From positions 1 through 64,000 of the forward strand of contig JAFQOT010000012.1 in assembly GCA_017403065.1 (NCBI GenBank): a DNA stretch of 64,000 nt, in the 5' to 3' direction. Positions within the stretch are counted from its first letter, which is position 1, and each line of letters opens with the position of its first letter. Under the pieces are notes generated by a model. That model had not been told where the DNA came from. It saw only the letters and a program-made list of their open reading frames with translations, and searched no databases. Positions 9,154 to 11,051 of the stretch are shown here, one piece after another. Made by a program: the position numbers and the translations under genes. This DNA comes from Clostridia bacterium. GTDB taxonomy: Bacteria; Bacillota; Clostridia; Oscillospirales; Acutalibacteraceae.

Positions 9154-9182
9154 TTGCTATTATTGTCGCGCTTTGTTATAAT
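9154..9182 (+). promoter_or_regulatory. promoter of the SGNH hydrolase gene
   Basis: TTGCTA, 17-base spacer, TATAAT with a TGT extension. Transcription would start near 9189, giving a leader of about 80 bases that consists almost entirely of hairpins. Confidence 0.65.
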
Positions 9183-9199
9183 TAGATAGGTTAGGCGAA

Positions 9200-9259
9200 A
9201 CAAAATCTTTGATTTTGTCACAAATTTTATTGAAAATTTGTCCTTTCCCATTGAAAGGA
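9200..9259 (+). repeat. three consecutive hairpins in the leader of the SGNH hydrolase gene
   Basis: Perfect palindromes 9200-9218 (8-bp stem, TTT loop), 9220-9241 (9-bp stem, ATTG loop), and 9241-9259 (TCCTTTC with GAAAGGA, 7-bp stem). The last one buries the ribosome-binding site GAAAGGAG of the following gene in its right arm. The first two recur almost unchanged at 10446-10487. Confidence 0.65.
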
Positions 9260-9267
9260 GTATCATT

Positions 9268-10056
9268 ATGGACTGGGAAAAAGAACTTTATGACCAAAAC
9301 GAAAAACCGCTTGACAGATTAGTCGACGGTTATAGCCACACCAGTATTTTCAGAAAAATTGCCTTCGTAGGTGACAGTCTTTCTTCAGGAGAATTTCAGG
9401 TTTTAAATGCTGAAAATAAATACACCTATCACGATTTGTATGAATACTCTTGGGGACAGTATATCGCCAGAAAAAACGGTCTTACAGCCTATAACTTTTC
9501 TAAAGGCGGAATGACCGCAAAAGAATATATTGAAAGCTTTGCCGAAAAAAGAGATTTTTGGGACAAAGAAAAAGCCTGTCAGGCATACGTTATCGCCTTA
9601 GGTGTTAATGATATTTACAACAGAGGAATGGAAATCGGCAGTTTAGAGGATATTGATGCTACAGATTACCGAAAAAATAAACCTACCTTTATAGGTAATT
9701 ATGCCGCAATTATCAGCCACTATAAAGAAATCAGCCCAGATGCAAAATTCTTTTTTGTATCCTTTCCAAATACTACAAAACGCAATAAAGACGAAAGAAC
9801 CCACACTGTTATAAAAAGATTGTACGAGCTTGCGGAATATTTTGATAATTCCTATGTTATAGACCTTTATAAATACGGTCCTTTATATGACGATAAATTT
9901 GCGGAAAAGTTTTACCTTCACGGTCATATGAACCCAAGCGGATATATTCTTACCGCAAGAATTATTGATTCTTACATTGATTATATAGTACGGCATAATC
10001 CTGATGATTTCAGGTATGCAGGCCTTATCAATTCAGGAATCGAATATGAACGCTGA
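9268..10056 (+). CDS. SGNH/GDSL-type hydrolase
   Basis: Probable esterase or lipase-like hydrolase. FVGDSLSSGEF near residue 30 is block I with the nucleophilic serine (GDS), NFSKGGMT is block II with the oxyanion glycine, ALGVNDIY is block III with the GxND asparagine, and HGHMNPSGY near the C-terminus supplies the catalytic histidine of block V. The start at 9268 is set by the GAAAGGAG site 6 bases before it. There is no signal peptide, so the enzyme is likely cytoplasmic; substrate unknown. It is transcribed alone, downstream of a hairpin-rich leader that hides its ribosome-binding site. Confidence 0.82.
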   Translation: MDWEKELYDQNEKPLDRLVDGYSHTSIFRKIAFVGDSLSSGEFQVLNAENKYTYHDLYEYSWGQYIARKNGLTAYNFSKGGMTAKEYIESFAEKRDFWDKEKACQAYVIALGVNDIYNRGMEIGSLEDIDATDYRKNKPTFIGNYAAIISHYKEISPDAKFFFVSFPNTTKRNKDERTHTVIKRLYELAEYFDNSYVIDLYKYGPLYDDKFAEKFYLHGHMNPSGYILTARIIDSYIDYIVRHNPDDFRYAGLINSGIEYER

Positions 10057-10203: not shown

Positions 10204-10279
10204 TGGAGCTGAAGATGGGACTCGAACCCACGACCTGCTGATTACGAATCAGCTGCTCTACCAACTGAGCCACTCCAGC
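10204..10279 (-). tRNA. tRNA-Thr (anticodon CGU)
   Basis: On the minus strand the gene begins GCTGGAG and folds into a complete cloverleaf: acceptor GCTGGAG with CTTCAGC (one G-U pair), D-arm with GGCTCAGTTGGTAGAGC, anticodon stem around loop TTCGTAA (anticodon CGT in DNA), T-arm GTGGGTTCGAGTCCCAT, discriminator T, and an encoded CCA end. G1-C72, C2-G71 and G35-U36 are threonine identity elements. It decodes ACG. A terminator follows; a partial copy of the palindrome repeat lies just upstream. Confidence 0.95.
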
Positions 10280-10306
10280 ATAATAAATACTACAGTCATT
10301 AGAATT

Positions 10307-10410
10307 AAATGAGTGTCGTGCAAAATTAAATATTTTAATTTTGCCAAAGCCACTCTAAAAGTGGCTTGCCGAAACGCTTTTAAGCGTTTCGACTGACTAC
10401 AGTCATTATA
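10307..10410 (+). repeat. 104-bp direct repeat, copy A (four tandem palindromes)
   Basis: Differs from 10500-10603 by one base, in a loop. It contains four perfect hairpins in a row: an AT-rich 10-bp stem, an 8-bp stem (AAGCCACT), a 10-bp stem (CGAAACGCTT) and a 5-bp stem (GACTG). No reading frame of note. Confidence 0.85.
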
Positions 10411-10423
10411 ATTGAATAGGTCA

Positions 10424-10487
10424 GGCGAAACAATTCTGTTTCGCCACAAAATCTTTGATTTTGTTACAAATTTTATTCAAAATTTGT
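10424..10487 (+). repeat. three tandem palindromes between the 104-bp copies
   Basis: Perfect hairpins at 10424-10445 (GGCGAAACA stem, 9 bp), 10446-10464 (8 bp) and 10466-10487 (9 bp). The last two and the flanks match 9200-9241 upstream of the SGNH hydrolase. A TATAAT at 10407-10412 also parallels the one at 9177. Confidence 0.8.
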
Positions 10488-10499
10488 CCTTTTCCATTG

Positions 10500-10603
10500 A
10501 AATGAGTGTCGTGCAAAATTAAATACTTTAATTTTGCCAAAGCCACTCTAAAAGTGGCTTGCCGAAACGCTTTTAAGCGTTTCGACTGACTACAGTCATT
10601 ATA
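10500..10603 (+). repeat. 104-bp direct repeat, copy B
   Basis: Near-identical copy of 10307-10410, offset by 193 bp. Hairpins lie at 10514-10536, 10540-10560, 10563-10584 and 10584-10597. The whole stretch 10280-10655 holds no gene beyond these repeats. Confidence 0.85.
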
Positions 10604-10655
10604 ACAACTTACAAATATTAAGTCAAGTAAAAACAAAGTAGAATTGAGGGATAAT

Positions 10656-11051
10656 ATGGCAGACACAATTAACGCCCGTGTTGCCCGTTGCAGAAAATTA
10701 AGGGATATGACACAGGCTGACGTTGCAGAAAAGTTAGGAATGAAATGCAGCACCTATTCACAAATGGAGCGAAAAGGTAATATAAGCGCTCAGATGGTTT
10801 TGCATTTGGCAAATATTTTCGAGATTGAACCTGACGTTATTTTGTACGGTGAAAATATGCCTTTGCGACCCACCGTTGTTGCCGATCCAATACTACCGCA
10901 ACCCGAACCAAAACACCCCATACACGTTGACCCACCTTTAATTCTTACCGACAGGGAAACAAACATAATTAGAATTATACGTAATCTCAGTAAGGATAAA
11001 AAGGAAGAAGCTATAAGTTATATTTTATCTTTACACAACAATAAAAAATAA
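10656..11051 (+). CDS. XRE-family transcriptional regulator, 131 aa
   Basis: A Cro/C1-type HTH fills residues about 5-65: RVARCRKLRDMTQADVAEKL, then STYSQMERKGNISAQMVLHL and FEIEPDVILYG. The second half is a proline-rich linker (about residues 70-95) and a short charged helix (ETNIIRIIRNLSKDKKEEAI), probably for dimerisation. The ATG at 10656 has GAGGG 6 bases before it, whereas an upstream in-frame TTG does not. It stands alone between the palindrome array and a terminator, so it may regulate itself; targets are unknown. Confidence 0.8.
   Translation: MADTINARVARCRKLRDMTQADVAEKLGMKCSTYSQMERKGNISAQMVLHLANIFEIEPDVILYGENMPLRPTVVADPILPQPEPKHPIHVDPPLILTDRETNIIRIIRNLSKDKKEEAISYILSLHNNKK

Follow-up and report, generated by a model that had tools for sequence, protein, structure and literature searches.

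We found that the hairpin array between a tRNA-Thr gene and an HTH_3/XRE gene, in the 64,000-nt stretch of DNA analysed here (the window), contains a full copy of a dispersed, non-coding, AT-rich element of about 200 bp with a double-cloverleaf fold. It is probably a small non-autonomous mobile element of Clostridia whose folded halves are read in trans, and the best reading of the data is a new MITE-like family in which an enzyme acting in trans recognises those halves. The region between the two genes matches the original prediction, which described it as a chain of seven palindromes with two repeats: examination of the sequence and a repeat search recovered all seven hairpins and both repeats at the predicted positions. 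Only six of the palindromes are kept in the family; the seventh (10584-10597) forms the right terminus and is non-palindromic in most other copies. The single hairpin had been taken as the reused unit, whereas the unit that is repeated proved to be the whole element of ~195 bp.

The window carries the element in several states of preservation. The full copy and the tandem copy to its left have one AT in common (10408-10409), and immediately upstream of the tandem copy lies the 12-base remnant of a third. The 105-nt copies at 10307-10411 and 10500-10604 are 99% identical, differing at a single loop position of the fourth hairpin, and 10446-10510 recurs at 9200-9264 with 92% identity. One element may have inserted directly beside an older one, which would then have lost its left half. 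The decayed copy comprises a left cloverleaf without H1, has lost nearly all of the right half while keeping both tips, and terminates within the ATG of a GDSL hydrolase gene. The Shine-Dalgarno sequence of this GDSL-type hydrolase gene (GAAAGGAG, 9253-9260) comes from the decayed copy, whose terminal AT doubles as the first two bases of the start codon (ATG 9268-9270); it is possible that the element was co-opted here as a translation start.

Element copies and adjoining genes in the window, with the basis for each assignment
Feature	Position	Strand	Basis and details
tRNA-Thr gene	10204-10279	minus	
HTH_3/XRE gene	10656-11051		
Full double-cloverleaf element copy, ATAATT...GTCATTAT, both AT dinucleotides counted	10408-10602	+	CM R1 198 bits; blastn full-length copies 80-89% in relatives; DNA MFE fold
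Left cloverleaf	10410-10498	+	Closing stem 10410-10420 with 10488-10498; arms H1 10424-10445, H2 10446-10464, H3 10466-10487
2-nt spacer between cloverleafs	10499-10500	+	Alignment; GA in the window copy, GC in most copies
Right cloverleaf	10501-10600	+	Closing stem 10501-10512 with 10589-10600; arms H4 10514-10536, H5 10540-10560, H6 10563-10584
Tandem copy without left cloverleaf (deleted), right half only	10303-10407	+	
3'-most 12 bases (ACTACAGTCATT) of a third copy, beside the tRNA gene	10289-10300	+	Direct repeat D5; sequence
Decayed copy	9178-9269	+	CM R1 52.8 bits for 9176-9271; sequence

Folded with DNA parameters as a single strand, the full copy reaches -52.9 kcal/mol, whereas dinucleotide shuffles average -17.3 ± 2.9 and none of 200 was as stable (z -12.4); its minimum free energy fold is the double cloverleaf. 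RNAalifold applied to 81 aligned copies gave two adjacent four-way structures, each consisting of a closing stem and three hairpins. Across the 75 pairs of these 81 copies, 96.1% of cells are paired and 42 pairs show two-sided compensatory changes, compared with 17.4 ± 2.3 in shuffled and 16-22 in slid controls. Within a diverse set (n = 26), 51 of the 75 pairs changed on both sides against 27.5 in the control, and the covariation score was 0.397, with 0.115 for shuffled and 0.04-0.07 for slid controls. Because the alignment of this set had been guided by the structure, both the 51 and the 0.397 are somewhat favoured. Some of the compensatory change might stem from a mutational process in which one arm is corrected to match its partner. 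One copy (L163) is near-perfect in all eight helices, and another (L044) consists cleanly of a single half. There are also derivatives of 54-67 bp (L168, L086, L234, L228, L241) that retain both ends around one hairpin and are either in-place deletions or minimal mobile forms.

The ends of the element are imperfectly inverted. When the left end is set against the right end, 77.6% of cells are paired, with 8 two-sided changes; set against its mid-element partner, 91.7% are paired, with 84 two-sided changes. The closing stem of the right half is 97.0% paired and varies little. We therefore rejected global end-to-end pairing, as these co-variation counts (8 versus 84 two-sided cells) favour local closing stems. 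Unlike in an ordinary terminal inverted repeat, then, co-variation ties the left end to the element's middle and hardly to the right end, so that each half folds on its own, the two being separated by a 2-nt spacer.

Of 60 related genomes, 16 gave full or partial matches in a blastn search with a 201-bp query, with up to 14 in a single genome, and the full-length matches in relatives were mostly 72-89% identical. The exact 26-base end pattern was found at 72 loci, in genomes titled Clostridia, Oscillospiraceae, Ruminococcaceae or uncultured bacterium; where record titles state a source, it is the ruminant gut (goat, sheep, deer, water buffalo, yak). Unique full copies (n = 82) are 195-203 or 208-211 bp long. 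With a covariance model derived from the aligned copies, versions of the element were detected in 10 of the 394 genomes searched from the order, which fall in 8 of 168 sampled genera. Most of these versions are strongly diverged (for example in genomes G218, with up to 256 bp and a long additional arm, G163, G178 and G144). With a second covariance model, six matches of the same plan were found in G631, which belongs to a different order of the same class, and beyond G631 the phylum sample held no further credible covariance-model matches. A match in G808 was discarded as probably misbinned: it lies on a short contig in a bin with 5% contamination, and its coordinates equal those of copy L165. 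The genomes compared are mostly draft assemblies.

These diverged versions with the same plan have been amplified species by species, and the amplification in G218 looks recent, given the near-equal scores of the copies within this one genome. In the genus of G218 (L174, L181, L188, L194), the second arm of one half has been swapped for an arm of ~60 nt. A different short repeat (CGGGAAAACCATTTTTTGAAAAAATAGGTTTTCCCG..., bases 1-57 of the query) occurs dozens of times in G218 and is probably a terminator-like inverted repeat. Virus, phage and plasmid collections and viral contigs gave no match to the element. We found no earlier description of it in a limited set of papers, which does not prove absence.

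Comparison of occupied and empty sites bears on how the copies were dispersed. Orthologous empty sites were read by eye from alignments for copies L144, L102 and L074, and G286 has the empty site orthologous to L174. A joined-flank search added empty sites for L166 in G028 (91% identity, CCGCCC[AT]AAACA), L114 in G022 and L038 in G454, further, more diverged sites being left out as too ambiguous to read. The readable empty sites each have a single AT, and in occupied sites an AT flanks the element at either end; the left junction of L114 reads GT instead of AT, which is a later change. The paired AT is probably a 2-bp target duplication, although AT could also be carried by the element. A TA duplication is ruled out at L166, whose AT is preceded by C. 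Among the flanks, TT precedes the element in 71-72 of 91 and AA follows it in 63 of 91, giving a target consensus TT-AT-AA and a preference that is symmetric (TT left, AA right) and not strict. Insertion into promoter -10 boxes was considered and rejected, as there is no -35 box enrichment at the correct spacing by the element ends. In G631, copies L294, L298 and L301 lie within or beside another repeat containing GTTATAACACAAACTACGTGTTGAAACG, and L301 shows this repeat unoccupied at TTATAA. Taken together, the dispersed copies, the orthologous empty sites and the 2-bp AT at both junctions support the transposition-like process that had been proposed.

A link to Y1/TnpA-REP-like (RAYT) transposases had also been suggested, and it fared less well: neither G001 nor G163, both rich in copies, has a match to the Y1 transposase (PF01797). 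IS30 transposases are present in only 4 of 18 copy-bearing genomes and absent from G001, G163, G218 and G144, while the DDE_3 domain of IS630 (PF13358) was found in 0 of 15 genomes. G001, which is 96% complete and has at least 14 element copies, is without Y1, IS30 and IS630 transposases alike; absence from copy-bearing genomes is inconsistent with a role for any of these three as the mobiliser. Serine recombinases (PF00239) occur in 20 of 20 genomes and are hence uninformative, and the many-copy genome G046 has one weak match only. A pattern search of 10 genomes with 3 mismatches recovered no autonomous partner or parent insertion sequence with the same ends, in drafts that can miss insertion sequences, and the 20 regions read around unpaired ends held only full, shortened or 54-67 bp derivatives. 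In the single-contig genome G144 (C1, e.g. 1294313-1294669) there are seven near-identical Y1 transposase genes, and the element occurs at only one place. By analogy with what has been proposed for RAYTs and REPINs (PMC3116915), a trans-acting gene most likely moves the element.

These observations also bear on whether the element is an ordinary IS-derived MITE, with a DDE transposase that binds the outer ends and internal palindromes that are incidental ballast. Such an origin would fit a non-coding, AT-rich unit of ~200 bp with roughly inverted ends and a short target duplication, and it would fit the internally deleted derivatives that retain both ends. We nevertheless consider it unlikely: the ends show no mutual co-variation, each pairing with its own inner partner, and incidental palindromes would not persist via compensatory changes across families. 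Moreover, IS30 and IS630, the 2-bp-duplication families considered, are missing from most or all of the copy-bearing genomes tested, and no longer element with these ends was present in the 10 genomes searched.

The strong covariation could also be expected of a structured RNA (a 5' leader, a small RNA or a terminator cluster) that was spread by recombination and whose fold is selected as RNA. Consistent with this, copies are intergenic, at median distances of 48 and 44 bp to the adjoining reading frames, and some lie immediately upstream of a ribosome-binding site; however, their orientation relative to adjacent genes is mixed, with all combinations occurring, and the ends lack -35 box enrichment. 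In Rfam only the tRNA scored above threshold, and no described RNA family matches the element. The mismatches within stems provide a further line of evidence. Over all copies, leaving aside one column pair that is constantly T-G, we counted 105 G.T and 95 A.C mismatches; the diverse set gave 29 and 27. Between 36 close copy pairs, single changes led to G.T 50 times and to A.C 53 times, with 24 compensatory doubles and 3 other doubles, and variants common to several copies are balanced as well. By comparison, tRNA stems in the same DNA, used as a control, gave 19 G.T and 0 A.C (Fisher p about 1e-5). Since a one-strand RNA should tolerate G.U far more often than A.C and a DNA structure found on both strands should not, the ratio near 1:1 suggests a DNA-level constraint, although neutrally decaying copies also drive it toward 1:1. 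The constraint on the fold thus looks like one at the level of DNA and not of one-strand RNA, and with G.T not favoured over A.C on either strand we regard the RNA explanation as improbable.

Local shuffling of independent hairpin modules, as originally predicted, or an assembly duplication could account for array pieces of varied length recurring within 1.3 kb, but is very improbable for the element as a whole, as the six arms keep one constant order in 81 of 81 full copies, full copies lie at unrelated loci and in other species and are thus not unique to this locus, and the pieces that had appeared recombined are truncated or internally deleted forms of this one element, many of which retain its own termini.

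We therefore return to a mobile element recognised through its folded halves. An enzyme supplied in trans would recognise each half as folded DNA, whether a hairpin-rich single strand or a cruciform, and not as a terminal inverted repeat sequence; it would cut at the outer AT boundaries and insert the unit at another AT through a cut staggered by 2 bp. Selection would work on copies that are still moving, while the others would decay, mainly via internal deletion. More tentatively, the DNA-cloverleaf pair may define a class of mobile DNA of its own, in which an undescribed recombinase reads the shape of each half, such that the sequence could drift via compensatory change and the unit stay mobile. 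Small bacterial mobile repeats have mostly been interpreted as decayed insertion sequences whose ends match, and this element departs from that description: in two orders of Clostridia, covariation shows each of its halves maintained as a fold of its own, apparently as DNA. It offers a testable case in which DNA shape would be the signal recognised instead of terminal sequence, and it suggests that common gut bacteria hold a mobilising enzyme yet to be discovered. The covariance model is now available to annotate repeats that would otherwise be seen as unexplained hairpin arrays.

Several known systems share parts of this design. In IS200/IS605-type elements, folded single-stranded ends are recognised and insertion occurs beside a short AT-rich motif; the target of the element described here differs in being symmetric and not strict, and G001 and G163 have no Y1 gene. 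Bacterial MITEs such as RUP, Correia/NEMIS and ERIC usually form one long stem-loop by end-to-end folding, and most have TA tips (PMC2229807). Like them, the element is non-coding, about 100-200 bp, AT-rich, intergenic and dispersed, with a short target duplication and a stable predicted fold; in contrast, its two halves close on themselves, its ends do not co-vary and its junction dinucleotide is AT. Measured against what defines a MITE, it is short, non-coding and dispersed, and AT stands twice at occupied sites and once at empty ones, as for a target site duplication, although AT could be carried; the TA duplication of IS630-type (RUP-like) elements is excluded at L166, and their DDE_3 transposase was absent from the 15 genomes tested. 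It works like a MITE, yet matched ends, a defining MITE trait, are doubtful and no parent was found in the 10 genomes searched.

REPINs consist of two paired palindromes, and RAYTs have been proposed to act on them in trans, with a folded single strand as the proposed substrate (PMC3116915). They resemble the element as non-autonomous mobile units of two structured halves, and the element differs in its six arms in two cloverleafs and in that G001 and G163 lack a Y1 transposase. The Bacillus cereus repeats bcr1-bcr18, of 100-400 bp, are likewise confined to one bacterial group, vary in copy number by strain and are proposed to be mobile, and have been linked to repetitions of a TTTAT motif (PMC6542083). 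The flank tables hold no TTTAT direct repeat at the element ends, only the TT-AT-AA preference, and the AT junction and double cloverleaf set the element apart from these repeats by description. The CIR repeats of Caulobacter and Brucella also have two separate arms and a linker and not one end-to-end stem (PMC2229807); each CIR arm is one long inverted repeat, whereas each half of the element is a closing stem with three hairpins.
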